32,470 bases of DNA from Candidatus Zhuqueibacterota bacterium. GTDB taxonomy: Bacteria > Zhuqueibacterota > Zhuqueibacteria > Residuimicrobiales > Oceaniaggregativiventaceae. Made by a program: the position numbers and the translations under genes. Where the stretch lies: the NCBI GenBank assembly GCA_014728085.1, contig WJMF01000215.1:1-32470 (forward strand). The letters run 5' to 3'. The notes below the pieces were generated by a model, which was not told where the DNA came from, ran no database searches, and was given only the letters and a program-made list of their open reading frames with translations. Shown here piece by piece: positions 585-24,444 of this stretch (the first letter of the stretch is position 1; each line of letters begins with the position of its first letter).

Positions 585-1733
585 ATGCAGGACGGAATAT
601 ATCATCACATCCCGGAAGCGCAAACAAAGTCCGCGAAAAAATTACGCGATACTTATAACCGCAAACCCGGTGCGCCTTTCTTCCATAAAACGTTTGGCCT
701 CTGGATGTGCCTCGATCACTGGTATGAAACCGGTCTGGACAGAAGCGTTGATTTGAATTCGTTTTTTTTACTCGACCCTCCCGGACATCATGAGCTGGGG
801 CAGCTGGGGTGGTGTGAAGCGGCGTTTGTTCCGCATTTTGATGAGATCATCTTAAAAGATCTCGGTGACAAAGAAATCGTTCAGGATATCGCCGGCCGTT
901 CGGTCTTATATTTTAAAGGCAGACGGCATGGTTTTATGCCGGAATACCTCGATCACCCGGTAAAAGACCGCAAAACCTGGGAGGAAAATGTAAAATGGCG
1001 GCTGGATCCGAAAACGCCGGAACGGTGTCAGCTATTAAAAGCACGCATGGATAAAGCCCGCCAGGCGGCGGCAAAAGGCTTGATGATTCAACAGAATCTT
1101 ATCGGAGGCTATATGTATTTGCGCAGCCTTTTCGGACCGGAGCATTTACTCTATGCATTTTACGACAAGCCCGGACTCGTCCATGATTGTATGAAAAGCT
1201 GGTATGAGTTGGCAGACCAGGTCATTGCAAAACATCAACAGGCCGTCACGCTGGATGAACTCTTTATGGCCGAAGATATCTGTTATAACCATGGCCCCCT
1301 GATTTCACCGAATATGATTCAATCATTTTTAGTTCCCTACTATCAGCAACTCGTAGAGAACATCCAAAAGCGGCAACTCGATAAAAACCGGCATTTGTTT
1401 ATTCAAATCGATACGGACGGAAAGGCAACGAGCGTCATCGATCTTTACAGGGATCATATCGGCATGGATGTGATGAGTCCTTTTGAGGTTGCTTCCGGTT
1501 GCGATGTTCGTCATGTCGCCGATCACTATCCCGACTTGGTCATTAGCGGCGGCATTGACAAGCGGGTTCTCAGCAAAGGAAAAACAGAAATCGATCGCTA
1601 TCTGGAGTCTATATTACCCGTTATGCGAAAACGCGGCGGATATATACCCACTGAAGATCATGGTGTTCCTCCGGAAGTGAGCTGGCAAAATTTTCATTAC
1701 TATCGACAGCGTTGTGTCGAGTTTGGAGATTGA
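585..1733 (+). CDS. Uroporphyrinogen decarboxylase-like (URO-D superfamily) protein A
   Basis: A 382-residue protein without signal peptide, therefore probably cytoplasmic. The overall layout is that of the URO-D/MtaA/CmuA superfamily: a TIM-barrel protein with a late GG-x-D segment (ISGGIDKRVL) and a typical C-terminal helix after a GGYIPTEDHGVP loop. It is not a housekeeping HemE: the HemE N-terminal arginine signature is absent. The corrinoid methyltransferases of the superfamily use H-x-C-G to bind zinc; at the matching place (near residue 275) this protein has QIDTDG, so methyl-transfer chemistry of the MtaA type is not supported. The start ATG has only a weak purine-rich region (AAGAG) upstream. 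A 36-base gap separates it from a second, divergent member of the same superfamily, and both precede glycosidase and transporter genes. Substrate unknown. Confidence 0.85.
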   Translation: MQDGIYHHIPEAQTKSAKKLRDTYNRKPGAPFFHKTFGLWMCLDHWYETGLDRSVDLNSFFLLDPPGHHELGQLGWCEAAFVPHFDEIILKDLGDKEIVQDIAGRSVLYFKGRRHGFMPEYLDHPVKDRKTWEENVKWRLDPKTPERCQLLKARMDKARQAAAKGLMIQQNLIGGYMYLRSLFGPEHLLYAFYDKPGLVHDCMKSWYELADQVIAKHQQAVTLDELFMAEDICYNHGPLISPNMIQSFLVPYYQQLVENIQKRQLDKNRHLFIQIDTDGKATSVIDLYRDHIGMDVMSPFEVASGCDVRHVADHYPDLVISGGIDKRVLSKGKTEIDRYLESILPVMRKRGGYIPTEDHGVPPEVSWQNFHYYRQRCVEFGD

Positions 1734-1752
1734 TACGGAAAGGGTTCAAAAT

Positions 1753-1770
1753 ATGAAACAGGCGATTTAA
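1753..1770 (+). promoter_or_regulatory. Five-codon leader ORF overlapping the next start (possible translational coupling)
   Basis: An ATG at 1753 is preceded by GGAAAGGG at a good distance (8 bases) and opens a five-codon frame (MKQAI) ending in TAA at 1768-1770. The last A of this stop is the first base of the ATG of the following gene (TAATG). The following gene has no Shine-Dalgarno of its own close to its start, so ribosomes may reach it by terminating and restarting here. This is an interpretation of sequence layout only. Confidence 0.3.
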
Positions 1771-2864
1771 TGCTGGATTTTAGTCAAGAGCAATGGCAAA
1801 GTGTAAAAGAGATTTCAAAGCGCTGGTGGCAGGGTGACCTGGAGCGGCCGATTATTCAGGTAAGGCTGGAAGGGAAAAAACCAAAAAGACCAAAACCCGA
1901 GCTGCCACTTTATGTTTTTGATTCGTTTCATGACCTTGCCATACCTGCAGAGACGATAGTCGATCGCCTCGACTATCATCTCCAGTCAACTCTTTATATG
2001 GGTGACGCCTTTCCACAATACTGGCCGAATTTTGGCCCCGGTGTGATGGCTGCCATTCTCGGAGCTTCGCTTCAAAATGGATTGGGTACGGTATGGTTTC
2101 ATCCTCCTGATGAGCGGGAGATCGGGGAAATTTATTTTTCTATTGATACAAATAACGTCTGGTACCAGCGTATTTTATCATTGATCCAAGCAGCATCGAA
2201 ACGCTGGCAGGGAACGGTTCAGATCGGCATGACGGACCTGGGGGGTAATCTGGATATTTTATCAGCATTTCGACCCGGAGAAAAGTTGATTTATGATCTT
2301 TATGATCAACCACAGCAAGTTGAACGTTTACTTGAGAAAGCACATGCCCTGTGGTGGGAATGCTTTGAGCAGATGCATGCTTTGACCACACCTGACAACC
2401 CCGGTTATAGCTGCTGGACACCTCTATATTCAGAGCAGAGTTATTATATGCTGCAATGCGATTTTTCTTACATGCTCAATCCGCATTTATTCGACTCTTT
2501 TGTCAAACCCGAGCTGGTTGCTTCAGCGAACAAGCTCGGAAATGCTTTTTATCATCTGGATGGCCCCGGACAGCTGCCGCATCTGGATTCAATATTGGGG
2601 ATCAAGGCGATAAAAGGCGTGCAATGGATTCCCGGAGCCGGCCAACCCGACGTTTCGCAATGGCCATGGGTTTATCAAAAGATTTTGGGCGCAAACAAGT
2701 TGACGCAAATTTTCAATCATCAATGCCATGATGATCTCGATTTTCTCGATCAATTGGCGGATCAACTGGGTACGCTGAAGAATGTTGCCTATATCTATCA
2801 GGGCCATATTTCGCAGGAAAAAAAGATGGAAAAATTATTGCTTAAATATGGCGCTCTTAAATGA
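1770..2864 (+). CDS. Uroporphyrinogen decarboxylase-like (URO-D superfamily) protein B
   Basis: A 364-residue cytoplasmic protein. It opens with FSQEQWQSV and a WWQGDLERP stretch, and contains YHLDGPGQLPHLD (His262, Asp264) followed by IKGVQWIPGAGQP. This set of motifs is characteristic of a URO-D-superfamily branch often labelled as trimethylamine-corrinoid-like or simply URO-D family. In zinc-dependent corrinoid methyltransferases the corresponding motif is H-x-C-G; here it is H-L-D-G, so the cysteine ligand is missing. It is clearly distinct from the upstream neighbour, not a recent duplicate. The chosen start gives the usual N-terminus of this branch and overlaps the stop of a five-codon leader. 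No corrinoid-binding protein lies nearby, so the actual reaction cannot be named; the position next to glycosidases suggests a role in metabolism of a modified sugar or glycoside. Confidence 0.85.
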   Translation: MLDFSQEQWQSVKEISKRWWQGDLERPIIQVRLEGKKPKRPKPELPLYVFDSFHDLAIPAETIVDRLDYHLQSTLYMGDAFPQYWPNFGPGVMAAILGASLQNGLGTVWFHPPDEREIGEIYFSIDTNNVWYQRILSLIQAASKRWQGTVQIGMTDLGGNLDILSAFRPGEKLIYDLYDQPQQVERLLEKAHALWWECFEQMHALTTPDNPGYSCWTPLYSEQSYYMLQCDFSYMLNPHLFDSFVKPELVASANKLGNAFYHLDGPGQLPHLDSILGIKAIKGVQWIPGAGQPDVSQWPWVYQKILGANKLTQIFNHQCHDDLDFLDQLADQLGTLKNVAYIYQGHISQEKKMEKLLLKYGALK

Positions 2865-2991
2865 CGGGAAAAGGGCCCGTGTTAAACAGTGGGTTATTGG
2901 AAAAAGTGTATATAGAATTAACCTTGCAGCTGTTCTATAAACAAGGTCCTCAACACGGACAAACCAATCACCATCAACATTGAGGAGTGAT

Positions 2992-4533
2992 TTGAAGTAT
3001 ATTGCGATTTTTCATGCGAATTTAAACTATGCCTACCTGACACCGGACCGGTATGAGTTTGTTATTCGCAATGCTTATGAAATGATCATTGACACCATGC
3101 AGGAGCGGTTTGCCGGCACGCCTTATGTTTTTGAAGCTTCCGGCTATACGATTGAACAGATGGCGATGAGAACCCCGAATGTGATAAATAAATTAAAAAG
3201 CGCTATCGATTGCGGGCAGTGTGAATTTATGGGGTCGCCATATGCACATCCCATGCTGGCCAATTTTCCAAAAGAGGATGGACTCTGGTCACTGCGGTTT
3301 GCTCTGGAATGTTATGAAAAATATCTCGGCGTTCGACCATCGAGTTTCTGGAATCCGGAATGTGGCTGGCATTCTCAGGTAGCGGAACAGGTCATCGAGA
3401 GTGGCTATGAGAATCTCCTGGGTGATTTTGAGGCCTTTAGCCATGCCCATAATCCGCAGGGAAAGCCGGTGCGGCCGCAGATATACGAGAGCGATTATAC
3501 GGCCAAGCCCGCGTTTTACAATTTTTCGTTTGAATACGATCTTCCCGGAGACGAGGCGGCCATTCATTTTCCTTTCAACCGGCTTTACGGCATGAAAACC
3601 GACGCATTGCGCCTCTTTTTGCGCACCGACAGGGTCGCGCAATTTGGGGTACGATATTTTATGGGAATGCAGGGTTACAGTTTGGATAAATATCTCGATC
3701 TTATCGATAAATATTCAGCCCAAACGCAGAATCAGCCGGAAGGTGCCTTGATTATCTTTGCTGATGATGCTGAATATATCGGTACCAACGGATGGTTTCG
3801 CCTGAAATATCAAAATGAACCGGATCGCGTTTTTGAACCCACGCCGGAATCGCATCAGCGCTTGATCGATCTGGTCCGTGCATGCTCTCAACGGGGAGAA
3901 TTTACGACCTTTGAGCGCGCCTGCCGTCAACTGCCGGTAACGACTGAAACGCTTGCATTTGATGATGATTCGGCCTGGCACGGTGCCCGGGCGTCCACCT
4001 GGGCAACGACACCGATGGCCAAATTGCTCAGGCCCTGGCAGGAACGGGTAAGAGCAAAGCTGAAAGCGCTCGAGTCATCGCTTGCGCCCGAACAGAAGAA
4101 AAGAGCCTGGTTCCATTTGACAAATTCATATAATTCTGACGGGCAGTGGCCTCCGACCTTGCCGGAGGCGCCCCATATTGTTCATCCTTACAACTATAGC
4201 TACTGCTTTGAACACCTCTTACAGGCTGATTTGTTGGTTGGGGGAGTGGATCGGGAGACATTATCTACAGATGCAGCCCAAACCATTGAGCATATTTTGG
4301 AACCACAGCAAAAGCTGGTTTTGGAAAAAGCCGAACACATCCTGCAATCAGGGCAAGACGCGGAAAAAGTCAAAGCACTTGAGGCTCAAACGCTGATCAA
4401 AAAATCCCGGGAAACACCCCCTGGCGGGGAAACCCGGGTGAGGATTCTCTATCCGTCGGAATACCTGGTCCGCGCCAATGCCCTTGTCGAGGCGAGAAGG
4501 CTGGTGGGGGGAGTTGAAATAGAAGAGTCGTAA
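2992..4533 (+). CDS. Glycoside hydrolase family 57-type protein
   Basis: About 513 residues, no signal peptide, therefore probably cytoplasmic. GH57 landmarks appear in order: an early H-x-N segment (FHANLNY), the CEFMGSPYAHP stretch, then SFWNPECGW, whose glutamate (about residue 123) matches the family nucleophile, and FADDAEYIG, whose aspartate matches the acid/base. The C-terminal half is helical, as in other GH57 enzymes. Family members are amylases, alpha-galactosidases, branching enzymes or glucanotransferases; which activity applies here cannot be told. I prefer the TTG at 2992, which has GAGGAG four bases upstream; an in-frame TTG at 2980 would add four residues but has no ribosome binding site. 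The preceding 127-base gap holds only a short GC-rich hairpin (2864-2880) without a T tract. The gene is followed 58 bases later by a symporter gene. Confidence 0.85.
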   Translation: MKYIAIFHANLNYAYLTPDRYEFVIRNAYEMIIDTMQERFAGTPYVFEASGYTIEQMAMRTPNVINKLKSAIDCGQCEFMGSPYAHPMLANFPKEDGLWSLRFALECYEKYLGVRPSSFWNPECGWHSQVAEQVIESGYENLLGDFEAFSHAHNPQGKPVRPQIYESDYTAKPAFYNFSFEYDLPGDEAAIHFPFNRLYGMKTDALRLFLRTDRVAQFGVRYFMGMQGYSLDKYLDLIDKYSAQTQNQPEGALIIFADDAEYIGTNGWFRLKYQNEPDRVFEPTPESHQRLIDLVRACSQRGEFTTFERACRQLPVTTETLAFDDDSAWHGARASTWATTPMAKLLRPWQERVRAKLKALESSLAPEQKKRAWFHLTNSYNSDGQWPPTLPEAPHIVHPYNYSYCFEHLLQADLLVGGVDRETLSTDAAQTIEHILEPQQKLVLEKAEHILQSGQDAEKVKALEAQTLIKKSRETPPGGETRVRILYPSEYLVRANALVEARRLVGGVEIEES

Positions 4534-4591
4534 AACCAGTATCAATATAACGCTTAAAAAATTCGAACTACATTGAGAAAAGGACCTGATA

Positions 4592-6778
4592 ATGTTTGGA
4601 CTGGCAATTGTCGATGTGATTACGATTTGCGTTTACTTTCTCTTTGTCATCATAATTGGATATTGGGCTTCGCGCCGCATTCAAAGTCAGGAAGACTATT
4701 TTCTTGGGGGTCGGCGTTTCGGGAAATTTGTTCAAACCTTTGCGGCGTTTGGCCAGGCCACATCTGCAGAAAGTGCGGTGGGTATATCTGTTATCGTTTA
4801 TCGTAACGGATTGGCCGGCGTCTGGCAGACCCTGACCGGTGTCTTTGGACTTCCCATGTACTGGATTACATCGGTCTGGTACCGGCGCATGCGTCTTTTA
4901 ACGCTCGGGGATTTTTTCGAGGAGCGCTTTCAATCCAAAGGTCTGGCAGCTCTCTACGCCTGGATCAGTGCCGTTTTTTTTATGATTGTCATAGGACTGG
5001 GATTCACCTCCATGACCAGAACCATCACAGCCATTGCCGCTAAACCGCTCGAAGAACTCACAGCGGCTGAACGGGCAGAATACGGCCGGGCTAATGAATT
5101 GGCCGGACTTGAAAATTCTGATGCGAGATTGCTCAGTTCTGAAGAATTGCGTCAACTGGAGTTGCTGCGTTTGGAAAATCCCCGTAAAGAATTCTCCTAT
5201 ATCAATGAGGATATATTGATTTGGGTGGTGGCTTTAATCGTGATTCTCTATGCGGTATTCGGCGGACTGGAGGCCGCTTTTATTACCGATACGCTGCAGG
5301 GAATTTTTATCCTTATTTTATCTCTCATGTTATTACCCTTTGCTTACGGAAAGATCAATGATATCTATGGCACCAGCGGATTGAGTGGTATTGTTGAAAC
5401 CGCCAAAGCGAGACTTCCGGAAGCAAATTTTGAGATATGGGGTTCGCCTCTGATGGTGGATTTTACCTGGTATTATATCCTGGCGATTACGGTGATGACG
5501 TTAATCAATACTGCAATACAGGCAAATCAACTGACCGCCTGTGGATCGGCCAAAGATGAATATACGGCCCGGTTTGGTTTTACCACTGGTATTTATCTGA
5601 AACGATGGGCGACCCTGTTATGGGGCGTTTCTGCCTTGTTGCTGGTGGTGCTCTATATGGATGTTGTAAAAAATCCGGATTATTTATGGGGATATGCCTG
5701 CCGGGATCTGCTGGGGCAGTTGGGAATTGGCCTTGTCGGGTTGATGATCGCCTGTCTGATGGCAGCTTTAATGTCTACTGCAGATGCCCTGATGCTTACC
5801 ACTGCCAGTTTGCTGACTCGTAACTTTTTTCGCCCGATTTTTCCGGGAAAATCGGAAAAGAGCTATATATGGGCCGGACGCGCAATCGGATTTCTGATTA
5901 TTATCGGAGCGGTGTTAATTGCCAGTCAGTTTGATAATGTTTTCCAGATGTTGAAAATGATATGGGAATTTAATATTATTATGGCTGCAGCCTTTTGGGT
6001 GGGATTGAAATGGAGGCGGGCCACGCGCGCCGGCGCCTGGGCATCTATGACAAGTGCGTTGTTGTTTTTCGTCGTGTTACAAGTTCTTGTTCCCATGATC
6101 CCCGGAGTAAAGAGACACCCCTATCTTCTCAAAACCATTGAACCGATGACACTGGTAAGAACATATACCGCTCGTGATGTTGATGTACAAAAGCGGCAGC
6201 AGGAAATATCAGATTGGGATCAGTTAAACGATCGCGGCCTGACACAGGAGCCTCGCCCTTTGCCTCTGGTCGCCGGGCTAAGTTTTCAATCCACCTTTAA
6301 AACACCGAAAAAGTCGATCTTTTGGACAAAAGGATTAAAGATCGACAACCAAAACCGGGTTTATGGATCAGGAATGCTCAGCCTGGAGCTGGTAATTCTC
6401 GACAGAATCGGTTTTGCTCTGGCAAAAAACACTTATGCTATGAACGAAACGATAAGAATTATGATACGAACATGGATGCCTTTTTTGGTCATTATTTTGG
6501 TTTCTCTGGGCACAACACCGGACGACAAACGACAACTCGATCGCTTTTTCGTTAAAATGAAAACACCAGTTCAGAGCGATCGACAGAAAGACGAAGAGGA
6601 GATGAAAAAATCTTATGCCTATCCCAATCGCTTTGATCATAAGAAATTGTTTCCCAATACGCAGCTGGAGTTTACCCGGCTTGATCGCATGGATTGGCGC
6701 GGGATTATTGCCTTTTTATTTGGTGGCATGTTGATTTTGATGGTGTTATATTTGGTCTCATACCTGGGACGATATTAA
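4592..6778 (+). CDS. Sodium:solute symporter (SSS family) with long loops
   Basis: A 728-residue polytopic membrane protein, longer than the usual 450-600 residues of this family. The N-terminus shows the typical first helix followed by YFLGGRRFG, then FAAFGQATSAESAVG, the conserved region of SSS proteins; later GGLEAAFITDTLQG and LMAALMSTADALML match the family's central and late signatures. Two features are unusual: a charged insertion of about 60 residues (roughly 148-206, rich in Glu, Arg and Leu) between transmembrane segments, and a long hydrophilic stretch (about 520-620) before the last helices. Near residue 651 it carries FFVKMKTPV, a motif shared with the second symporter at 25115. 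The ATG is preceded by AAAGGA at seven bases. Its place between a GH57 and a GH2 gene suggests import of a sugar or glycoside with Na+. Confidence 0.93.
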   Translation: MFGLAIVDVITICVYFLFVIIIGYWASRRIQSQEDYFLGGRRFGKFVQTFAAFGQATSAESAVGISVIVYRNGLAGVWQTLTGVFGLPMYWITSVWYRRMRLLTLGDFFEERFQSKGLAALYAWISAVFFMIVIGLGFTSMTRTITAIAAKPLEELTAAERAEYGRANELAGLENSDARLLSSEELRQLELLRLENPRKEFSYINEDILIWVVALIVILYAVFGGLEAAFITDTLQGIFILILSLMLLPFAYGKINDIYGTSGLSGIVETAKARLPEANFEIWGSPLMVDFTWYYILAITVMTLINTAIQANQLTACGSAKDEYTARFGFTTGIYLKRWATLLWGVSALLLVVLYMDVVKNPDYLWGYACRDLLGQLGIGLVGLMIACLMAALMSTADALMLTTASLLTRNFFRPIFPGKSEKSYIWAGRAIGFLIIIGAVLIASQFDNVFQMLKMIWEFNIIMAAAFWVGLKWRRATRAGAWASMTSALLFFVVLQVLVPMIPGVKRHPYLLKTIEPMTLVRTYTARDVDVQKRQQEISDWDQLNDRGLTQEPRPLPLVAGLSFQSTFKTPKKSIFWTKGLKIDNQNRVYGSGMLSLELVILDRIGFALAKNTYAMNETIRIMIRTWMPFLVIILVSLGTTPDDKRQLDRFFVKMKTPVQSDRQKDEEEMKKSYAYPNRFDHKKLFPNTQLEFTRLDRMDWRGIIAFLFGGMLILMVLYLVSYLGRY

Positions 6779-6793: not shown

Positions 6794-9700
6794 ATGCAAC
6801 AAAACGGAGATGTTTTTGCTCAAATAGCCGCCAAACGGTTACAACAACGCAATGCGGAACTGACAGAACCCAATCCGCCGTCGCTTGCTCCTGTATCACT
6901 TCCTGTTGAGCCGGGTTCCAAACAGGCCTTTATCCCGCCCTCTCGACGCGATTCAGACAGAGAGCTCGACAGTGATTTGAAAACGCTTGAGGAAAAATAC
7001 CTGCCGTTTTTACAGAGCTGTGCTCCTCAACTTGATGACTATCGTTTCCGGCTTGCCTTAACCACTTTCGATTGGCGTCCGGAAAAGGATTCGGACCGCA
7101 GGAATTTTGCCGGTGTGGTGGACGGAACGGGTGAATGGCAACAGGTTTCGATTCCTCATTATGGCCCCCCGGTTGGCCGGGCAGCCACTCTTTATCGAAC
7201 CACGTTTCGCCCCGGTGAAGAAATGCTAAACGCCGGATCATTGTTTATCCATTTCAAGGGAGTGGATTATAAAGCTCATCTTTTTATCAACCATGCTTAC
7301 GTCGGCTCACACGAGGGATTTTTCGCTCCCTTTGAGTTTGATATCACACCCCATGTACATCCGGAAGAGAATGTGATTGTCGTTCGGGTTGAAAACGATT
7401 TCATTTTTATGGGCAATCGCAGTAAAAGCGGTAAAGTGATGGAAGGGGATAAAAATTATGCTGCGACCGGATGCGGGTGGGATGACCCCGATTTCGGCTG
7501 GCACCACTGTCCTTCGGGCATGGGTATTTACCAGAAGGTTTATATCGAGGCGCGTCCGCGGCTGTTTATCGGGGATGTTTTCGCAAGGCCGATGCCGGAA
7601 AAGCAGGAGGTCCGAATAAGCGTATCGCTCCATAATGCGGATACGGACTATAAGCAATTTGCCTTCAGGTTATCGCTTTATGGTGAGAATTTCAAATCCT
7701 GTGTTTTCAAGGATTTTATTTTTCAGCCCCGGAGCATGGATGTTCCCGGTTTGGGAGATGTGCAAAAAGACGGCAATAAAGAGGTGATTCTGTCAGCAGG
7801 ACCGGGGGAGAATGAATATATTATCCCCCTTGTTATTGGCGAGATGCGGCAATGGGAGCCGGAAAATCCATGGTTGTATCAGCTGCAGATTACGCTGCTC
7901 GATAAAGAGGACAATCCAGTGGATGCGGCATCGCAGGTCTTTGGCATGCGTTCTTTTGAGATGGATACGACCCGGGAACCCAAAGGTCGGTTCTGCCTGA
8001 ATCAGATACCGGTCAAATTGCGCGGTGTGAATACAATGGGACATTTACAACAATGCGTCCTGAAGGAGGATTGGCATCAACTCGTGGAGGATATTTTACT
8101 GGCCAAACTCTGTCATGTCAATTTTTTAAGATTTACCCAACGGCCGGTTCAGGCGGAAATTTATGATTTTTGCGACAGACTGGGGATGATGACCCAGACC
8201 GATCTGCCGTTATTCGGGGTGGTTCGGCGGAATCGGGTTTGGGAGGTCGTACGCCAGGTGGAAGAGATGGAAAAATTGATCCGTTCTCACCCCTGTAATG
8301 TCCTCGTCTCATACATCAATGAACCGTTTCCCAACGCCATGGGTAGACCCCACAGACATTTGAGCCGCCCGGAGCTCGAAGCGTTTTTCCGGGCCGCTGA
8401 TATCGCCATTTTGAAAAATAATCCGGACCGGGTCATTAAACCCGTGGATGGAGATTATGACCCACCGGCTCCCGGTCTTCCGGACAATCACTGTTATTGT
8501 GGCTGGTATATCGGGCATGGAATAGACCTGGGGAGATTGCACAAGGGATATTGGCAAAAGGTCAAACCCGGCTGGTTGTATGGATGCGGAGAATTCGGTT
8601 CGGAAGGACTGGATTCCCAAGAGGTGATGCGAAAATACTATCCCAAAACGTGGTTGCCCGAGTCACTAACGGATCCCCGGCAATGGACGCCGGATAAAAT
8701 TATTAAAGCGCAAAGCGGCTGGTTTCACTATATGTGGTTTGAGACACCGGAAGATCTTAACGGTTGGATCAAGGCGAGTCAGGCGCATCAGGAATGGATT
8801 ACCCGTTTAATGACGGAAGCGTTCCGCCGCGACAATCGTATGGTTTCCTTTGCTCTGCACCTTTTAATCGACGCGTTTCCCGCCGGCTGGATGAAGGCGG
8901 TAATGGATGTAGACCGCCGTCCCAAGCCGGCATATTTTGCTTTTCGGCATGCCCTTGCACCGTTGATGACAAGTCTGCGCAGCGACCGCAATGCTTTTTT
9001 CAGTGGAGAAGAGATAAAAGTTGAGGCATGGGTTTGTAACGACCTGCATAGTGTTCCACCGGATGCACGCCTCTGTTACCACATGCAAGTCGGGAAGGAG
9101 ATTGTTGCCTCCGGAACGGTGCCGGCAAAGGTTAAACCATTTTCAAGTACATTTCAGGGCTTTATACATTTTCACGCTCCCCGGATTAACCATCGCAAAA
9201 AAGCGATTATACGACTGGCACTGGTTACAGACAAAGTCCTTCATCACACTTTTCTGGAGCTGGATCTTTTTAAGGAGATTGAGCCTGTTTCCCGCGCCGT
9301 GCGCGTTATCGGGAGGCCTGATGGAAAAGCAGCCGTATTGATCGGAGCACTTGGGTATACGACGACGGATAACAGCTCTGTAAAGCGTTCAGATGTGATT
9401 GTCATCGATGACTGGAAAACGTACACTGATATGAAAGAAGAGATCGACCTTGCCGTAACCGGGGGAGCAGTTGCTGTTTTTATCGAACTGTCTCCCGGCT
9501 TTTGTCAAATCGATGGTGATCAAATCGAAGTACAGAAAGCCGGGATGGGTCCCCGGCATTTTGTTTCGCGCAATACAAAGCATGAGCTGGTTAACGGGTT
9601 CCAACCTCATGATTTTAAATTTTGGTATGAGAGTAAATCGGGATATCCGACACCGCTATTGTCCTCGGTTTTCATTACAGCGGGCTGGCAAGCTGTTTTA

Positions 9701-9868
9701 ACCAGCGGTAATGGAGACTGGTATGGCAACTGGAAACCGGTATTCGCAGCGGCGGAAAAACGCAAGGGAAAAGGGGCTTATCGTATCTGTCAGGTTCACC
9801 TCGCAGATCATATCGAGGGAAATCCGGTTGCTGAAATTTTTGCACGTCGTTTTCTGAGCAGAGAATAG
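6794..9868 (+). CDS. Glycoside hydrolase family 2 enzyme (beta-galactosidase/glucuronidase-like)
   Basis: A 1024-residue protein. Domains in order: N-terminal tail without signal peptide (1-70), GH2 sugar-binding jelly roll (about 110-260, with the GVDYKAHLFINHAYVGSHEG strand pair), Ig-like domain (about 265-400), TIM barrel (about 410-700), then a further beta domain and a C-terminal alpha/beta domain (about 830-1024). Catalytic residues can be placed: Glu510 in YINEP as acid/base and Glu600 in CGEFG as nucleophile, both matching GH2. The barrel opens with the usual LRGVN. Lacking a signal, the enzyme should act in the cytoplasm on material brought in by the symporter encoded 15 bases upstream. 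The ribosome binding site is poor (AAAAAAGG adjoining the ATG), so translation may be coupled to the symporter gene. Exact sugar specificity (galactose, glucuronate or mannose type) is not determinable. Confidence 0.92.
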   Translation: MQQNGDVFAQIAAKRLQQRNAELTEPNPPSLAPVSLPVEPGSKQAFIPPSRRDSDRELDSDLKTLEEKYLPFLQSCAPQLDDYRFRLALTTFDWRPEKDSDRRNFAGVVDGTGEWQQVSIPHYGPPVGRAATLYRTTFRPGEEMLNAGSLFIHFKGVDYKAHLFINHAYVGSHEGFFAPFEFDITPHVHPEENVIVVRVENDFIFMGNRSKSGKVMEGDKNYAATGCGWDDPDFGWHHCPSGMGIYQKVYIEARPRLFIGDVFARPMPEKQEVRISVSLHNADTDYKQFAFRLSLYGENFKSCVFKDFIFQPRSMDVPGLGDVQKDGNKEVILSAGPGENEYIIPLVIGEMRQWEPENPWLYQLQITLLDKEDNPVDAASQVFGMRSFEMDTTREPKGRFCLNQIPVKLRGVNTMGHLQQCVLKEDWHQLVEDILLAKLCHVNFLRFTQRPVQAEIYDFCDRLGMMTQTDLPLFGVVRRNRVWEVVRQVEEMEKLIRSHPCNVLVSYINEPFPNAMGRPHRHLSRPELEAFFRAADIAILKNNPDRVIKPVDGDYDPPAPGLPDNHCYCGWYIGHGIDLGRLHKGYWQKVKPGWLYGCGEFGSEGLDSQEVMRKYYPKTWLPESLTDPRQWTPDKIIKAQSGWFHYMWFETPEDLNGWIKASQAHQEWITRLMTEAFRRDNRMVSFALHLLIDAFPAGWMKAVMDVDRRPKPAYFAFRHALAPLMTSLRSDRNAFFSGEEIKVEAWVCNDLHSVPPDARLCYHMQVGKEIVASGTVPAKVKPFSSTFQGFIHFHAPRINHRKKAIIRLALVTDKVLHHTFLELDLFKEIEPVSRAVRVIGRPDGKAAVLIGALGYTTTDNSSVKRSDVIVIDDWKTYTDMKEEIDLAVTGGAVAVFIELSPGFCQIDGDQIEVQKAGMGPRHFVSRNTKHELVNGFQPHDFKFWYESKSGYPTPLLSSVFITAGWQAVLTSGNGDWYGNWKPVFAAAEKRKGKGAYRICQVHLADHIEGNPVAEIFARRFLSRE

Positions 9869-9905
9869 TTGGGTTGCTCTTGATTCAGAATCAAACATTG
9901 CGGGG

Positions 9906-10237
9906 GTGTTCGACAGGTATCGCGCCGATCTTTTAAACGAAAGCGTTTCCGAGGCAGCCTTGCCGGATCAGGTTCATAACGGCAGTAAATTTCTGTTGCA
10001 ATCGAAAACAGAATATGATGAAGCAATTTTCTGAAAACGGCTCTGGTACAAGGTTACGCAATGTCAGATGTGGACCATGGTGTAGAAAAGGATCAAATAG
10101 TCCAGACATTGACACAGCGTTATGAATTGCCCCAACCACCAATCGACCTTACGGTCAAGATTGAAAGAGATTTATTGCAAGCCGAAATTGTTCCACTCTT
10201 GAAGATTAAATTAGATCATACCGGAGCCTCTTTTTGA
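9906..10237 (+). pseudogene. Possible frameshifted relic of a PqqD-like protein
   Basis: No intact gene fits the gap between the GH2 gene and the permease gene, but three short frames follow one another. Frame one (GTG 9906 to TGA 10034, 42 codons) ends in YDEAIF. Frame two (from 10018) continues with FSENGSGTRLRN. Frame three is an open 58-codon stretch (ATG 10061 to TGA 10237) reading DVDHGVEKDQIVQTLTQRYE and further to an Asp/Leu-rich end. Read across the shifts, the order resembles PqqD-family peptide chaperones: a beta part, an L-N-x-T segment, then a D-G-x(4)-Q-I-V helix and a final helix. No radical SAM partner is present. The end overlaps the last 22 bases of the permease gene on the other strand. 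The resemblance is by eye and weak; it may be non-coding. Confidence 0.3.
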
Positions 10238-11046
10238 GCGCGAAAGGATTTTATCAGAATCACCAGAACGAGAAACAAGGCGAGAAAAAGGACAACCACC
10301 GGTCCGCTGGGGACATCCAGATTCCAGGAGAGGAACAAGCCCAGAATGCTCACCAGGGTTCCTGCAATCCAGCCAATGAGGATTCTCCAGCGCCATTGAT
10401 CCGAAAACAGAGCTGAAATTGCAGAAGGTATAATTAAAAAAGCAAAGACGATGAGAATGCCGCCTATCCGGACAGAGTGCATCACCACGATACCGAGGGT
10501 CAGGTAGAATATAAAATCCCACCACATGACTTTGGTTCCTTTTTGTTTTTGCGCTTCATATTTTTCGGACAGGCCAATAAATTTATCGCGAAAAATATAG
10601 TGCACGCCACCGATAACAGCATAGACGACCAGTGACTTTATGATTTCGGGCCATTGCACCCATAAGATCGATCCGATAATCATTTCCTTAATATGTTCAT
10701 GAGAGCCGGCTGCCTTGTCGATAACGATAACCGCAGCGGTGGTGGCAACGGCATAGGTAATGCCGATCACGGCTTCCATGCAAATTTTCGGTTTTTTGCA
10801 GCGCAAGGCAGCGAACAGATATGCAGCGACACAGACAAAGACGAGTGAGAAAAGATACGTCAGCGGGTGTCCTTCTTCAATATTCAACACGAAAGCCAGA
10901 GTAACACCAAAGGCAGCAATTTGTGCCATGGCAATATCGATAAAAATAATACCCCGTTTCAGGACATGGATACCAAAATATCCATGAATGCCGACAAGTG
11001 TCAGACAAGCGGCGAACGGGGGTAACATAAAAATCAGACCTTCCAC
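10216..11046 (-). CDS. Metal ABC transporter permease (ABC-3/ZnuB family), second of two
   Basis: A 276-residue membrane protein with about eight hydrophobic segments. The RGIIFIDIAMAQIAAFG stretch near residue 32 and VVMHSVRIGGILIVFAFLI near residue 190 are hallmarks of the ABC-3 permeases that carry zinc, manganese or iron. I take the GTG at 11046 as start because AGAGG lies a few bases upstream; an ATG six codons in is the alternative. The gene begins 14 bases after the end of a sister permease gene, and the pair most likely forms a heterodimeric channel working with the binding protein encoded at 11876-12952. It is the last gene of the operon; the ATP-hydrolysing subunit that such a system requires is not encoded next to it. 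In the C-terminal part KSFRAQKEAPV is an ordinary cytoplasmic tail. Confidence 0.93.
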   Translation of the reverse strand: MEGLIFMLPPFAACLTLVGIHGYFGIHVLKRGIIFIDIAMAQIAAFGVTLAFVLNIEEGHPLTYLFSLVFVCVAAYLFAALRCKKPKICMEAVIGITYAVATTAAVIVIDKAAGSHEHIKEMIIGSILWVQWPEIIKSLVVYAVIGGVHYIFRDKFIGLSEKYEAQKQKGTKVMWWDFIFYLTLGIVVMHSVRIGGILIVFAFLIIPSAISALFSDQWRWRILIGWIAGTLVSILGLFLSWNLDVPSGPVVVLFLALFLVLVILIKSFRAQKEAPV

Positions 11047-11060
11047 AAGAAACCTCTTTG

Positions 11061-11873
11061 TTAAACCAACCTCTTTTGTTGTGCAAGTATGGACATTATT
11101 AAAAGGGCTCCTAAAGCACAGACGATTGTGGGACCATTGGGAAAATTATATTGATAGGAAATATATATACCTGCCAATGACCCGATCATCGCTGTTACGA
11201 AGGAGATGACAAAACGCTTGTTCCAGGAATCGGTGTAAAGCTGCGCCAGCGTTGCGGGCGCAATGAGATACATAAAAACGAGAAAGATACCTCCGATTTT
11301 AACCGCCTGGACGATTACAAAACCAAAAGTAACATAAAAGAGCAGATCCAGTCGCCGGTTATATGAGCTGAATGTTGTTTGCTCCGAATTCTCCGACAAG
11401 GCGATGAATTGTTTTCTAAAAAATGCGTGTATACAGATAACCAGAGAAAAAAGGAGGAGCATTTGTACAATATCGTTCCAGGAGACCCATAACAGTGAAC
11501 CGGTCAGTGTTTTTTGTACAAAATTGGCTCCTCCCTGAACGGCATCGACAAGGAGCATTGCAGTTGCTAAAGCTACACAGTAAATCACGCCGATAATCAC
11601 TTCCCGTGATAATTCAGTATGCTGGAATTTTGCCAGAGAAAAAAGCGATAGAATAACGAGTGTAAAAGCGAGTGAAATCACCGTGGACAAGAGGGTTCCG
11701 TCCTGAACGCCGATCAGGATGCCCAGCATGGTACCCAGGGCGGCCACTTGTGCAACGGCGATATCGATAAAAATAATACCTCTGGTCAGGATATGGTTGC
11801 CAAAGTAACTCAAAATTGCTGCCAGCAAAAGCGAAGCGGTTATGGGGGCTGCCAAAAAATATACTGTATCCAT
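11061..11873 (-). CDS. Metal ABC transporter permease (ABC-3/ZnuB family), first of two
   Basis: A 270-residue polytopic protein paralogous to the following permease: it shares RGIIFIDIAVAQVAALG near residue 31 and VIVQAVKIGGIFLVFMYLI in the C-terminal half. The open frame extends 15 codons further upstream to 11918, but that extension would overlap the binding-protein gene and has no ribosome binding site, whereas the ATG at 11873 is preceded by AGAGG at eight bases and gives the usual N-terminus (MDTVYFLAAP). The start lies two bases after the stop of the binding-protein gene, so translation is probably coupled. ABC-3 permeases move Zn2+, Mn2+ or Fe2+ across the inner membrane. Two different permeases per system suggest a heterodimer, which occurs in some zinc and manganese transporters. 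Confidence 0.93.
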   Translation of the reverse strand: MDTVYFLAAPITASLLLAAILSYFGNHILTRGIIFIDIAVAQVAALGTMLGILIGVQDGTLLSTVISLAFTLVILSLFSLAKFQHTELSREVIIGVIYCVALATAMLLVDAVQGGANFVQKTLTGSLLWVSWNDIVQMLLLFSLVICIHAFFRKQFIALSENSEQTTFSSYNRRLDLLFYVTFGFVIVQAVKIGGIFLVFMYLIAPATLAQLYTDSWNKRFVISFVTAMIGSLAGIYISYQYNFPNGPTIVCALGALLIMSILAQQKRLV

Positions 11874-11875
11874 AA

Positions 11876-12952
11876 TCAGGACCTCTGCTGAATAGAATGA
11901 TTCAGAGTGGAAATCCAATAGTCTACCAGGTCAAAGATATCTTCTGTGCCTTCGATACCACCGCAGGAGAGGGGTAAAAAGGCGCATTGGATGCCGGTTC
12001 GTTGTGCAATCATCATCGGCGTGGATTTTTCAAAATAGGTTGCCACCATCATAACATCGATATTTTGTTCTTTGATCAGATTGATGGTGTTTTGAACATG
12101 CTTGGCCGAGGGCGGAATACCCGGCTTGGGTTCGACATATCCCATAACCTGCAATCCAAAGGTGTCTGTAAAATATGCCCAGTTTTTGTGATAGGCGATT
12201 ACTTTTTTGTCACGCAGAGGCAGGGCTTGTTTTAGCCAGCCTCCCAGGAGATCGATCAGTTTTTGACCCTGATATTCCTTCTGCAGAAATGTGAACAATG
12301 TATGATTGTGCAAGAGGTTTCCCAGTGTTTCCCCTTCGAAAAGATCGACAAGCGCATCTCCAAAGAGGGCTCTGTCAACCCGGTCGATAAATTCATCGCG
12401 GTTTTTTTGATAGAATTCACAATTTGCCGGATCTACTTTGCAAAGGCCGATGGTTATATTTGCGGCAATTTGCTTCCAGTTTAGCGGTCCGGTATGGATA
12501 TGCGGATTTCCCATAAGATGGATGTCGCCTTCGGTACGGTCAGCTGTATCAACTTTTTGCAGAACTTTGATACCGTCTGCTGCGGCAACAAACCCTTTCT
12601 CTCCGTCCATAATGTCTTTATTTCTGGCTTTGTCCAGCAGGGTGGATGACCAGATTTCCAGGTCCATTCCGGTGGTTACCCAAAGATCAGCTTTACGCAA
12701 CATCATGGCAAAGCTTGGTTTTGGGGGAACAAAATGGGGATCGCCGTCTCCGGCAGAAATAAATTGTACAGAGCCCTTGTCTCTGACAATATCTCTGGCG
12801 ATAGAGGCATAATCGGAAAACGAGGTTACGATTTCAAGTCCCTGCTCATCGTGATGTCTGCCATACCGGCGATGATGGTGTTGTGCCGCGGCCAAAGCGC
12901 TGTAAACGAGAACAACAATGGATAACGTATAAAATATTTTTTGAAACTGCAT
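11876..12952 (-). CDS. Zinc-type ABC transporter substrate-binding protein (ZnuA/TroA family)
   Basis: A 358-residue periplasmic protein. The signal peptide (about 1-24, ending ALAAAQ) is followed at once by a His cluster, HHHRRYGRHHDEQ. The metal-site residues of the cluster 9 binding proteins can be seen: His73 in GDPHF, His151 in GNPHIH, His255 in AYHKNW, plus an acidic residue near VATYFEKS. The long connecting helix typical of the family runs through the middle. His-rich segments are commonly found in zinc-specific members, usually as an internal loop; here the cluster sits at the mature N-terminus. The start has AGGAG six bases upstream. The gene follows the outer-membrane barrel gene by 21 bases and precedes two permease genes. 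Zinc is the likely cargo; manganese or another divalent metal is possible. Confidence 0.92.
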   Translation of the reverse strand: MQFQKIFYTLSIVVLVYSALAAAQHHHRRYGRHHDEQGLEIVTSFSDYASIARDIVRDKGSVQFISAGDGDPHFVPPKPSFAMMLRKADLWVTTGMDLEIWSSTLLDKARNKDIMDGEKGFVAAADGIKVLQKVDTADRTEGDIHLMGNPHIHTGPLNWKQIAANITIGLCKVDPANCEFYQKNRDEFIDRVDRALFGDALVDLFEGETLGNLLHNHTLFTFLQKEYQGQKLIDLLGGWLKQALPLRDKKVIAYHKNWAYFTDTFGLQVMGYVEPKPGIPPSAKHVQNTINLIKEQNIDVMMVATYFEKSTPMMIAQRTGIQCAFLPLSCGGIEGTEDIFDLVDYWISTLNHSIQQRS

Positions 12953-14798: not shown

Positions 14799-15449
14799 TC
14801 AGGTTAGCAGGGGCAACAATTGACGACAATTGTCCAACACGCAGCAGGCGAGCGTAAAGTTTCCATCACGCGTAAGCGGATTGGGAATGGCGGCACAACG
14901 TACGCCTGCCCGGTGAGCAGCGGTTACACCCCGCTCGGAATCTTCTATGACCAGCGCCTCATCTGCGGTTATACCGAGTTTTTCAAGTGCGAGCCGGTAC
15001 GGTTCCGGATCGGGTTTTGAATGTTCATAATCTTCCCGTGTCAGGATGAGATCGAAAAAAGGCAATAGACCTGTATTTCTGTGAATAATGTCAAAATATT
15101 GTCGTCTTGAACTGGTGACCACGGCCATTTTATACCGCGGTGCCAATACGTTTAATACCTCCTCAACCCCGGCCATGATTTCGATATCCTGATGCAGGAG
15201 CTCGATATATCTTTTGTCCCGTTGCTGTCGCAATGCCAAAATTTCATCTGCTGTCATGCCCCGATCGAGTGCAAGGTCGAGGGCGCTTTTGCCCTCTTTT
15301 AAAGATATATGCAAATAGAGTTCATGGGTCAGATCGATCCCCAGAGTTGCCAGAAATTCCCTCGTAGACTGAAAATAGTATTTTTCCGTATCTACCAGAA
15401 TACCGTCGTTATCCCATAAAATAGCCTTTATACCTTTGAGTGGTTTCAC
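14799..15449 (-). CDS. HAD-superfamily sugar-phosphatase/phosphoglucomutase-like hydrolase
   Basis: About 216 residues. All four HAD motifs are present: I, WDNDGILVDTE (nucleophile and acid/base Asp); II, VVTSS; III, KPDPEPY with its Lys; IV, VIEDSERGV. The region between motif I and II forms the small helical cap of the beta-phosphoglucomutase/phosphatase group, which acts on sugar phosphates and similar small phosphates in the cytoplasm. The frame reaches back to a TTG at 15479, but AAAGGAG lies inside that extension and points to the GTG at 15449, which also gives a compact N-terminus. The gene comes just after a sulfatase relic on the same strand. Specific substrate unknown. Confidence 0.88.
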   Translation of the reverse strand: MKPLKGIKAILWDNDGILVDTEKYYFQSTREFLATLGIDLTHELYLHISLKEGKSALDLALDRGMTADEILALRQQRDKRYIELLHQDIEIMAGVEEVLNVLAPRYKMAVVTSSRRQYFDIIHRNTGLLPFFDLILTREDYEHSKPDPEPYRLALEKLGITADEALVIEDSERGVTAAHRAGVRCAAIPNPLTRDGNFTLACCVLDNCRQLLPLLT

Positions 15450-15483
15450 TGTAAACGATTCTCCTTTTAGGCTCGCCAATCAT

Positions 15484-15969
15484 TCAATCTGTAGCCTGAG
15501 GTTCATATAGCATGCCCTTGGAGCCACGCAGGGGCGCCATAGAGGTCATGACACCGTGTCCTCCATTATCTGAACAAATAATCACTATTTCAGGAGAAAG
15601 AACGGGATTATTGGCGACCGGGACAAGCTTGCGAAATCGTGGATTGCCCCGTTCCGGGCTGCCTACAGTATAAACGCCGTGGCGTGGCGAGTATTGTCCG
15701 CTTAACAATGAGGCACGGGTGGGAGCGCAATTGGGAGCGTTTGCATACGCCTGGATAAAAATCATACCCTCTGCGGCAAGGCGATCAATGTTGGGTGTTT
15801 CGTAATAGTCGCTGCCCATAAACCCGACATCTTTCCGGCCGAGGTCATCGATCAGAATAAGGATAAAATTAGGTTGGTCAAAATTATTTGAACAGCTATA
15901 TAAGCGCGGAGCGGCTAAAGCTGCCAGCAGGCCCCTCAGGGATTTTCGCAAAAACAGTCTTCGATGCAT
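15484..15969 (-). pseudogene. Sulfatase relic with internal deletion and missing C-terminal half
   Basis: A 161-codon open frame that starts as a normal type I sulfatase: RR-containing N-terminus, the metal pair Asp41-Asp42 in LIDDLG, and the formylglycine site CAPTR (Cys81). At about residue 128 (near 15588) the text jumps from VPVANNPVLSPE, which in related enzymes is followed by the AEALK-GY-T segment, straight to IVIICSDNGGHG and APLRGSKGMLYE, which normally lie some 150 residues later. It then stops, so the whole C-terminal domain is lost. There is no Shine-Dalgarno before the ATG. The N-terminal part differs clearly from the intact sulfatase encoded next to it, so this is the relic of a second, different sulfatase rather than a copy. 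Confidence 0.85.
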
Positions 15970-16081
15970 AAAAGAATTCTAAAGTCGGATTGAGGTTGTA
16001 ACACAGTTTTGATTACAGGGAAAACTCTAATGCCGAAAAAGGTTTGAAGTTAAAGTTTTTGAAATCAATACATAACTAAAG

Positions 16082-16125
16082 CCTGCGATTCTCCTCAACC
16101 GCGAAGACCGGAAGAGAATCGCAGG
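16082..16125 (-). terminator. Perfect 12-bp inverted repeat, possible terminator of the sulfatase gene
   Basis: CCTGCGATTCTC (16082-16093) is exactly complementary to GAGAATCGCAGG (16114-16125), with a 20-base loop. It lies 48 bases past the stop of the intact sulfatase gene. On the minus strand only a broken T-rich stretch follows, so it may be a weak terminator or an RNA-stabilising hairpin. The rest of the 203-base gap 15970-16172 shows nothing else. Confidence 0.4.
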
Positions 16126-16172
16126 GAGGAATAAATTGTTTTCAAAAGTTTTTGAGCCGGAATTTAGGCGCT

Positions 16173-17651
16173 CTATTTTTCCCGTCGTGCTCTCGCCGCC
16201 AGGTCTTTCTGCAAAATTTCCCGGGTCAGCTCCGGTGTATCTCCATAGTGCCGGCGCAGATCAGCGAGTTCTTTTTTCAGCTTGTTTACCACATCCTGAT
16301 AGTTAGGATCGCTATAAACGTTGTAGAGTTCATGGGGATCATTTTCCAGGTCATAGAGTTCCCAGGCATCAATATCATAGTAGAAATGAATGAGTTTGTA
16401 GCGCCGGCTACGGATGCCATAGTGACGTTTAACCATATGCACGGCCGGATATTCAAAATAATGATAATACATCGATGTCCGCCAATCCGCCGGGGTTTTG
16501 CCTTGCAACAACGGGCGGATGCTTTTACCCTGCATCTCTTTCGGGATTTCAACGCCGGCAAAATCCAGGAAGGTTTCTGCAAAATCCAGGTTGAGGACGA
16601 TGTCGTTATTCACGCTGCCAGCTTGTACCGTTTTTGGATATCTCACCAGGAGAGGCATGCGCAGTGATTCTTCATACATGAATCGTTTATCGAACCAACC
16701 GTGGTCGCCGAGATAAAAGCCCTGATCTGAGGTATAAACCACAATGGTGTTTTCAGACAAGCCGGATTCATCCAGGTAATCGAGAAATCGGCCTATGTTG
16801 TCATCTACAGAGGCGACACAAGCGAGATAATCCTGCATATATCGCTGATACTTCCATGCTTTCAGGGCATTGCCTTGAAGGTCCTGCGGCCAGGGTTCTT
16901 TTACGTCTTCTACGGTGAGATCGTGTAATATACTCATTTCCTGCTCTTTGGCCGCCCGGCTTTTTGTGCTGTAATCGTCATGAAACGTTTCAGGCTCGGG
17001 AATGGATTTTTGGCGCCATTTTTTAGCATATTCCTCATCCGGTTTCCAGCGCCGATGCGGAGCTTTATGGTGATACATGAGCAGAAACGGTTTTTCTCTG
17101 TCCAGCGATTTCAGCCAGTTGATACTCATATCGGTGATGATGTCCGTGACATAACCGCTGTGTTTTTTTCGTTCTCCCATTTCGATAAAGTCAGGGTCGT
17201 GGTAATTCCCCTGTCCCGGGAGAATATTCCAGTACTCGAATCCGGTGGGATCGGTTTTAAGGTGCCATTTTCCGATCATAGCGGTGGTGTAACCTGCTTG
17301 TTGCAATAGCTTGGGAAAGGTTGGTTGTGAGCCATCGAATTTTTTACGATTATCGATTACGCCATTGAGGTGGCTGTATTTTCCCGTCAGAATAGTGGCC
17401 CGGCTGGGTGCGCAAATCGAGTTGGTACAAAAACAGTTATTGAACTGCATGCCTTCGTTGGCCAATCTGTCCAGATTCGGCGTTTTATTAATTTTGCTGC
17501 CATAACAGCTGAGGGCATGGGAGGCATGATCGTCGGTCATAATAAAGACAATATTGGGTTTTGGAGCAGCAGAGCGGCAGCGCAAAAAAGGCAAAGCTGC
17601 TACGCCTACCCCCGTTGTTTTGAGAAAGTCTCTTCTTTTTAACGACTGCAT
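16173..17651 (-). CDS. Type I sulfatase, Tat-exported (N-acetylglucosamine-6-sulfatase-like)
   Basis: A 492-residue full-length sulfatase. The N-terminus has a twin-arginine signal ([10 protein letters not shown] followed by a hydrophobic core and FLRC). Metal-binding Asp40-Asp41 (MTDDH), the formylglycine site CAPSR (Cys80) and the second metal cluster [12 protein letters not shown] are all intact. The [16 protein letters not shown] and [11 protein letters not shown] segments resemble the branch containing N-acetylglucosamine-6-O-sulfatases of heparan/keratan breakdown; this is by memory of family motifs, and the true position of the sulfate is uncertain. The ATG follows GAGGAG closely. The Tat signal fits proteins whose Cys is modified in the cytoplasm before export; no maturase gene is in the window. 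Together with heparinase-like lyases nearby it suggests a sulfated polysaccharide substrate. Confidence 0.93.
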
Positions 17652-17772
17652 AGGCTCCTCACTTTTTTAAATGGAATTATTTTTAATCGTTGGAATACTG
17701 TCTTTACCGTTTATGTTTTCGGAAACAGGCTTTGCATGTCAATACTAAAGGATAACGATTTTTCGAGAAAAA

Positions 17773-18654: not shown

Positions 18655-19044
18655 CCATCCGCTCCGGTTATCCGGGATGATCGAATGACGAGCATCAATT
18701 GATCTTGTGTTTTCATCTCTACGGGCTCGCTATGATGATCCTTGTTGTTTTTTGCTTTGTGATTTTTATGAATGAATATGATACGACATTTTCCGCTAAA
18801 AAACAAGCCATGCAAAAGCAATCGTTGCTGATTACAGCCGGATTGTTTCAGGGCTGAACAGACAGAGAACAATATTAACCCATTGCGGTCTATCTGCGAC
18901 ACAATCGTGAGCTTGTACCCTCGCGAACGCCAAGAGTGGTGCTGATTTAATTTGCTTGATTATCATGAGGATAACTCCTATCATTAAGAGTGTGCAATTA
19001 TTTGATCCGTTTTATCTCATTTTTATAACGCATGGAGTTGATTA
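18655..19044. other. Intergenic region between divergent gene blocks
   Basis: A 390-base stretch separating the minus-strand kinase gene from the plus-strand lyase gene. It must hold both promoters. A CCGG-N4-CCGG palindrome (18664-18675) lies just upstream of the kinase start. A 41-codon frame with a hydrophobic N-terminus (18732-18857, +) has no ribosome binding site and is probably chance. No RNA gene or repeat was recognised. Confidence 0.6.
18956..18984 (+). promoter_or_regulatory. Possible sigma70-type promoter of the lyase gene at 19045
   Basis: TTGATT (18956-18961) and TATCAT (18979-18984) are spaced by 17 bases, about 60 bases before the ATG of the lyase gene. Confidence 0.4.
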
Positions 19045-21453: not shown

Positions 21454-21484
21454 ATTGTTACCAATGAGAAAAGGAGGAACATTT

Positions 21485-21874: not shown

Positions 21875-21888
21875 TACGCTTTGTTTTA

Positions 21889-21924
21889 AAAATACCCCCG
21901 GCGGATTCTCTCCGGGGGTATTTT
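21889..21924 (+). terminator. Rho-independent terminator
   Basis: AAAATACCCCCGG (21889-21901) pairs perfectly with CCGGGGGTATTTT (21912-21924): a 13-bp stem with a 10-base loop, 14 bases past the DUF4870 stop, flanked by A and T runs. The T-rich right side fits termination of plus-strand transcripts. The following bases up to 22122 contain no gene; a GGGT-AAAT-ACCC hairpin (22096-22107) sits just before the next ribosome binding site. Confidence 0.9.
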
Positions 21925-22122
21925 ATCTTCCATCCCCGACTTGTCCAGGGATTTAAACCTTGTATTTTTGCCTCATTTGATTATTTTTATTAAAGAGTTC
22001 TGCGTCGAAAACCGGCCAATAAGAGCGGCAGGTTTTTCTGGAATCCCCTGAAAATCGTATTAACGGGAATACTATTAAATTACACAGTGAAACGTGGGTA
22101 AATACCCGAGTGGAGAATTACT

Positions 22123-24384: not shown

Positions 24385-24444
24385 ATGTAACAGAAAAGTC
24401 TGGTGTTTTTAGCTGGTTTGACGTAAAGACAAGGAGGATTTTAG

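Follow-up and report, generated by a model that had tools for sequence, protein, structure and literature searches.

Here, we describe P1 and P2, two adjacent genes of a glycoside operon in an uncultured Candidatus Zhuqueibacterota bacterium (GenBank assembly GCA_014728085.1). We propose that they encode substrate-specific (MT-I) O-methyltransferases of the uroporphyrinogen decarboxylase (UroD) fold, which would use a shared corrinoid protein encoded elsewhere. We put the probability of this reading at roughly 0.55. The window analyzed is the whole 32,470-nucleotide stretch of contig WJMF01000215.1, contig C144 of an assembly (G000) of 5.19 Mb in 244 contigs that is 97.9% complete.

Both genes lie on the forward strand, separated by 36 base pairs. 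The original prediction, made from the DNA letters alone, had claimed an adjacent pair of URO-D-like genes; the open reading frames (ORFs) are indeed present, with P1 recognized by Pfam and P2 by its predicted fold. P1 passes the Pfam URO-D threshold (41.3 bits; cut-off, 23.9), while P2 has no match among the Pfam (E 0.001) or NCBIfam models. Because P2 does not match the URO-D profile, we assign it to the superfamily by fold only. An AlphaFold2 model of P2, built from a 48-sequence alignment, has a mean predicted local distance difference test score (pLDDT) of 96.3. Among the matches listed, its best structural match is MtaA (4ay7_A; Z 18.9, root-mean-square deviation 3.6, 298 aligned), and HemE entries score Z 16.6-18.0. 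The P1 model (19-sequence alignment, pLDDT 88) matches human UROD best among those listed (Z 23.4), with MtaA at Z 19.3. A profile of P1 and its relatives picks out MtaA as its best match (E 6.9e-16) and CdmB as a weak one (E 6.4e-7). Searches of PDB sequences with phmmer returned nothing for either protein, and the P2 profile found no convincing match among known structures. Both proteins are predicted to share a barrel of the UroD/MtaA (UroD/MetE) type.

The residues at the presumptive active sites differ from those of MtaA. We aligned 102 sequences with MAFFT, comprising MtaA, paralogues from the window's own genome, and the URO-D proteins of fetched loci. The H-I-C-G motif of MtaA aligns with D276-T-D278-G of P1, and the Cys of MtaA P-G-C-G aligns with P1 H359. 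All three zinc-ligand positions are therefore exchanged in P1, from His-Cys-Cys to Asp276-Asp278-His359. In the MtaA chain, the aligned residues have indices 246, 248, and 325, a spacing that matches that of the known MtaA zinc ligands, His237, Cys239, and Cys316. The exchange is concerted: wherever the first position is Asp, the second is also Asp and the third is His (33/33 sequences). These sequences are 25 P1 orthologues and 8 others, the latter including two paralogues, on contigs C52 and C154, from the genome of the window, and five further sequences follow the same rule. Most URO-D paralogues of that genome carry H-x-C-G. It had been proposed that Q-I-D-T-D-G stands in place of H-x-C-G in P1. 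The Cys motif is indeed replaced, but P1 cannot be read as a Q-x-D-T-D-G protein without a His/Cys counterpart: alignment to MtaA sets D276-T-D278-G on H-I-C-G, and P1 is therefore a D-x-D-G protein.

The companion claim, that H-L-D-G takes the place of this motif in P2, stands. H262, D264, and G265 are invariant in all 48 relatives, and also in 14 of 14 when distant ones are included. P2 relatives further conserve D156, D162, C230, D231, and H271, and the family has seven invariant Trp and two invariant Tyr residues. The MtaA-type zinc triad is thus absent from both proteins, with Asp-Asp-His in P1 and His-Asp in P2. According to one study, S-methyltransferases of this superfamily have His-Cys-Cys sites, while O-methyltransferases have carboxylates or non-ligands (PMC10418091). 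By alignment, both P1 and P2 have the O-type set defined there, with a carboxylate in place of Cys. CdmB is reported to be a UroD-fold MT-I enzyme that lacks zinc and acts with a separate corrinoid protein; an aromatic cavity is proposed to position the substrate in front of that protein (PMC13222342). In the open-licence literature, as far as our search reached into it, no Asp-Asp-His site is described for this superfamily.

In one large set of genomes, P1 and P2 are confined to those that carry a gene for the corrinoid activator RACo. A scan of a genome collection with P2 gave 200 confirmed stretches, of which 80 were kept. Fifty of these 80 P2 loci defined the genomes searched for P1; orthologues of at least 50% identity occur in 25 of the 50, and one of these 25, G108, holds a fragment only. 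We then tested 49 P1 genomes: 5 from the window's phylum, 24 of the 25 from the 50-genome search, and 20 more from a set of 288 genomes belonging to the phylum of genome G115. RACo and PF02607 are each present in 49/49; of 14 control genomes, one has RACo. The 288-genome set includes 105 genomes with RACo (PF14574), and these contain every one of the 22 genomes with P1 (P = 5e-11) and of the 20 with P2 (P = 5e-10). This association persists when three genomes picked by the P2 scan are removed (P = 3e-10 for P1 and 1e-8 for P2). Published fitness data connect B12 reactivation with proteins of the DUF4445/RamA-like and DUF1638 kinds (PMC5764234).

Some homologues also stand directly beside such genes, judging by longest-ORF calls in the fetched loci. 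In L228, a corrinoid protein (3206-3898), RACo (3998-5428), DUF1638 (5425-6150), and P1 (6291-7415) all follow one another on the forward strand, while in L227 and L229, P1 is convergent to DUF1638-RACo. A distant URO-D protein with the Asp-Asp-His site closes a same-strand run of corrinoid protein, DUF1638, and RACo in L246, and another Asp-Asp-His URO-D protein is followed by DUF1638 in L240. For P2, a corrinoid protein (9355-9987) directly precedes the orthologue in L148 (ORF from 9995, match from 10001), and in L242, a corrinoid protein, two URO-D proteins, and a P2-family H-L-D-G protein form one run. Consistent linkage of homologues with corrinoid proteins, which the original prediction had named as counting against it, is thus seen at genome level through RACo in the 288-genome set, and at the level of loci only in a minority. 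Separately, L172 has a single frame (926-3289) that matches both RACo and DUF1638, a fusion; a corrinoid protein and MtaB are encoded nearby, and a P2 orthologue lies about 4.5 kb away.

The window's genome encodes three PF02607 proteins: one stand-alone MtgC/MtbC-like methyl carrier and two CarH-like regulators; none of the three is MetH-like. About 28 URO-D matches over the cut-off therefore face a single corrinoid protein of the methyl-carrier type. The MtgC-like protein (L090:7269-7901, G000:C9) lies among aromatic amino acid and glycan genes, near DAHP synthase, prephenate dehydrogenase, and a DegT aminotransferase; a corrinoid protein close to a DegT gene is also seen in genome G047 (L249). 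Because no MetH was found, it is perhaps part of a split methionine synthase. The CarH-like B12-binding regulators are at L093:6252-7292 and L081:914-1801. The motifs among the URO-D proteins of this genome are of several kinds: H-x-C-G, H-x-D-G, H-x-H-G, and D-x-D-G. A single corrinoid protein with more than one partner has a precedent in MtgC, which is reported to serve two methyltransferase activities in Ruegeria pomeroyi (PMC12478193).

Several observations weigh against methyl transfer to a corrinoid protein. The window encodes no corrinoid protein, as had been claimed: neither PF02607, searched genome-wide, nor the corrinoid protein of the same genome, used as a phmmer query, gave a hit on contig C144. 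RACo and DUF1638 are likewise absent from the window. Within the stretches at hand, corrinoid proteins were found in 0 of the first 25 P1 neighborhoods and in 3 of 80 P2 loci, with none in the other 77. Corrinoid or RACo genes stand beside P1 in 3 of 49 genomes, and these three (L227, L228, and L229) represent one lineage, since their P1 proteins are 79-86% identical to one another. In P2, no third metal ligand is conserved, the third position being variable across the 48 relatives. RACo is itself an imperfect marker: instead of these enzymes, it may indicate an anaerobic lifestyle or a methionine synthase that depends on B12. In the window's phylum, it occurs in 50 of 82 genomes, so that its presence in 5/5 P1/P2 genomes is not significant (P = 0.078), and we rejected it as a specific marker there. 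One RACo-type protein of the window's genome (L248, G000:C178) lies beside RnfD-, TatC-, and PHP-family genes; RACo is therefore not always a corrinoid operon gene. Finally, phytanoyl-CoA dioxygenase-like (PhyH) proteins make up 7 of 112 P2 neighbors among the matches listed, which suggests oxygen-using hosts, an odd setting for a Co(I)-dependent enzyme. The Pfam scans behind such counts covered 93 of 129 P1 neighbors and 112 of 139 P2 neighbors, with short ORFs and UroD-fold or P2-family genes mostly left out, and list the 25 commonest families.

We also considered a high-scoring type of RACo. At E <= 1e-87, 14 of 17 such genomes in the 288-genome set have P1 or P2, and in the window's phylum, the high-scoring type occurs in seven genomes, including four of the five with P1 and P2. 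We give these results little weight because the cuts were chosen after seeing the data. This type lies within carbon monoxide dehydrogenase/acetyl-CoA synthase (CODH/ACS) operons in two genomes (L250 and L255), and contig C182 of the window's genome has the same RACo-DUF3786 order as L250. With CODH/ACS beside RACo, as in some P1 genomes, the methyl group could enter the Wood-Ljungdahl pathway.

The strongest competing explanation makes both proteins metal-dependent sugar enzymes (lyases, isomerases, or hydrolase-like) that work by acid-base or Lewis-acid chemistry, with no corrinoid. A hard-ligand site in a carbohydrate operon would fit this, the invariant Trp and Tyr residues of P2 would suit sugar binding too, and most loci lack a corrinoid gene. 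AraC-type regulators also lie near both genes (7 of 93 P1 neighbors and 10 of 112 P2 neighbors among the matches listed). However, every P1 and P2 genome of the 288-genome set carries RACo, and corrinoid runs include a P1 orthologue, a P2 orthologue, and another Asp-Asp-His member. Furthermore, we know of no superfamily member with lyase, isomerase, or hydrolase-like sugar chemistry. We therefore consider such enzymes unlikely, though a serious contender. The same evidence, together with the published O-type enzymes, weakens the earlier argument that a missing Cys motif and a missing local corrinoid gene speak against methyl transfer. On balance, the evidence leans toward methyl transfer by P1 and P2.

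The original prediction also held that P1 and P2 could form a heterodimer, which in its obligate form would have a composite active site and new chemistry. In the window's phylum, orthologues of P1 (at least 67% identity; next best, 34%) and of P2 (at least 49%; next best, 33%) occur in the same 5 of 82 genomes (hypergeometric P = 3.7e-8, phylogeny ignored), and are adjacent in four of the five. In the fifth (G056), they lie on separate contigs, each beside another UroD-fold gene. The scan placed P2 stretches in Planctomycetota, Verrucomicrobiota, Lentisphaerota, Chloroflexota, Latescibacterota, Armatimonadota, Bacillota, and other phyla. A cultured species, Eisenbergiella porci, has a P2 homologue of 40% identity (L174), whereas searching it for P1 gave no match at E 1e-25. 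A Bacillota metagenome-assembled genome (L170) has a P2 orthologue, a LacZ-type GH2 gene, and a P1 orthologue as successive genes. A tree built from 57 P2-family proteins, whose bootstrap had not settled, groups the four operon proteins of the window's phylum together (98/93) and places the L170 protein apart, with other Bacillota. In addition, a same-strand UroD-fold neighbor lies within 150 base pairs of P2 at 16 of 81 loci, compared with about 1% expected per locus.

These patterns do not extend to tight pairing. Of the 288 genomes, 22 have P1, 20 have P2, and 8 have both, against 1.5 expected (P = 2e-5). Among RACo-bearing genomes, the counts are 6 with both, 14 with P1 only, 11 with P2 only, and 71 with neither, and the excess is no longer significant (P = 0.095); thus, the raw excess may mostly reflect a shared need for corrinoid machinery, and we reject a tight functional pairing everywhere. 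P1 occurs without P2 in 14/22 genomes and P2 without P1 in 12/20, and an obligate heterodimer is therefore unlikely. The UroD-fold neighbors of P2, moreover, are of various kinds. Taken with the adjacency described above, this leaves the obligate heterodimer with only a slim chance. The expectation that the two proteins would co-occur in other genomes is borne out in the window's phylum, where P1 and P2 are a real gene pair, and only weakly elsewhere. The best reading is that they serve the same catabolic task.

An acceptor-side (MT-II) role, or a thiol methyltransferase role of the MtaA or MetE type, is similarly improbable for the two proteins, and slightly more so: MtaA leads the listed fold matches of P2 and is the best profile match of P1, but neither protein has the His-Cys-Cys thiol site. 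A role as HemE paralogues in tetrapyrrole synthesis can be dismissed almost entirely, since, despite the UROD fold of P1 (Z 23.4), P1 scores 21.2 bits against a cut-off of 302.95 with the HemE equivalog model TIGR01464, P2 has no match to it, two other loci of the genome reach 200-213 bits with the URO-D model, and the context is a sugar operon.

The genes downstream of the pair are on the same strand and, by Pfam, are the GH57, symporter, and GH2 genes originally named (Table 1). An N-E motif near residue 510 of the GH2 protein is shared. In three relatives from the same phylum (G046, G047, and G059), P1 and P2 are accompanied by another P2-like gene, after which come GH57, symporter, and GH2 genes as far as each contig extends, except that in G059 the symporter directly follows the P2-like gene with no GH57 between. 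This recurrence of the P1-P2 operon is more than chance. The extra P2-like UroD-fold gene (L048:7349-8533, L049:1401-2576, and L050:1475-2572; 27-29% identity to P2) is located in these relatives after P2 and ahead of the GH57 gene, or of the symporter gene, and is absent from the window. Our open-licence literature search, within the text it could reach, returned no paper on a UroD protein within a glycoside operon.

Table 1. Features of the P1-P2 operon, with positions in the window.
Feature	Positions	Strand	Basis
P1, URO-D superfamily, Asp-Asp-His subfamily, 382 amino acids	585..1733	+	Pfam URO-D; predicted fold; orthologues of at least 50% identity in several phyla
P1 D276-T-D278-G, site of MtaA H-x-C-G	1410..1421	+	Profile alignment to 4ay7; MAFFT alignment of 102 sequences
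P1 D358-H359, H359 at the third MtaA ligand (Cys)	1656..1661	+	Same two alignments
P2, UroD-fold protein whose family has no Pfam model, 364 amino acids	1770..2864	+	Predicted model; MtaA fold match
P2 H262-L-D264-G	2553..2564	+	Conservation across relatives
GH57-family protein	2980..4533	+	Pfam, 94.6 bits; 62-64% identity in G047 and G046 operons
Sodium:solute symporter	4592..6778	+	Pfam SSF; 66% identity in G047, 74% in G059
GH2-family protein	6794..9868	+	Pfam GH2 domains; 51% identity in G047

Beyond the operon, the opposite strand encodes a zinc/manganese-type ABC uptake system with two permeases and one binding protein (10216-12952). The region from 14799 to 31843 holds more polysaccharide genes, including sulfatases (one of them short, 15484-15969), three heparinase II/III-like proteins, an esterase-like protein, and a second symporter.

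Under the methyltransferase reading, the symporter would import a glycoside that the GH57 and GH2 proteins would cleave, and P1 and P2 would each bind an O-alkylated, probably O-methylated, sugar or glycoside; it is the operon that points to a sugar substrate. The acceptor of the alkyl group would be Co(I) in a stand-alone corrinoid protein, encoded elsewhere and common to several such enzymes, much like a hub with spokes, and RACo/DUF1638-type proteins would keep the corrinoid active. The P1 site, rebuilt from a thiol-type His-Cys-Cys to Asp-Asp-His, would suit an oxygen ligand, while P2 would keep His-x-Asp amid its many invariant aromatic residues. Metal binding, methyl transfer, and the sharing of one corrinoid protein are putative properties of both enzymes. 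Of the suggested new catabolic step with unknown chemistry, a step on a sugar or glycoside is plausible, whereas the case for unknown chemistry is weakened by the confinement to RACo genomes and by the corrinoid runs.

UroD-fold genes are much expanded in this uncultured glycan degrader and are usually named "uroporphyrinogen decarboxylase". We tentatively suggest, as an idea more doubtful than the role proposed for P1 and P2 themselves, that glycan degraders of an acetogen-like kind, in many phyla, rely on a single corrinoid protein for tens of UroD-fold enzymes encoded in scattered sugar operons. Each enzyme would remove alkyl groups from its own natural sugar or glycoside and feed them into the Wood-Ljungdahl pathway, with one branch acting through an Asp-Asp-His site. 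If so, methylated sugars would supply methyl groups under anaerobic conditions, and the operon around each spoke enzyme could reveal its substrate. The concerted exchange of His-Cys-Cys for Asp-Asp-His makes this idea directly testable.

Among known systems, MtaA (4ay7) shares the UroD fold and the same three ligand positions with P1, and is the nearest match to P2 by structure and to P1 by profile. It differs in its His-Cys-Cys site and thiol acceptor, where P1 has Asp-Asp-His and P2 has His-x-Asp without a conserved third ligand. HemE/UROD resembles P1 in fold (Z 23.4), but P1 lacks a HemE-level score and has the metal-type residues Asp276, Asp278, and His359. HemE is not known to need a metal. 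CdmB, also a weak profile match to P1, is reported to combine a UroD fold with no zinc and a separate corrinoid protein (PMC13222342). The known substrates of CdmB and of the O-demethylase MT-I enzymes (OdmB, VdmB, MtvB, and MtoB) are haloalkanes and methoxylated aromatics; in contrast, the window presents a sugar operon with neither a corrinoid protein nor an MT-II gene. The corrinoid protein of the window's genome is MtgC-like, and MtgC of Ruegeria pomeroyi is reported to serve more than one methyltransferase (PMC12478193). Ruegeria, however, has two such activities, while the genome described here has many putative UroD-fold partners for its one methyl carrier.

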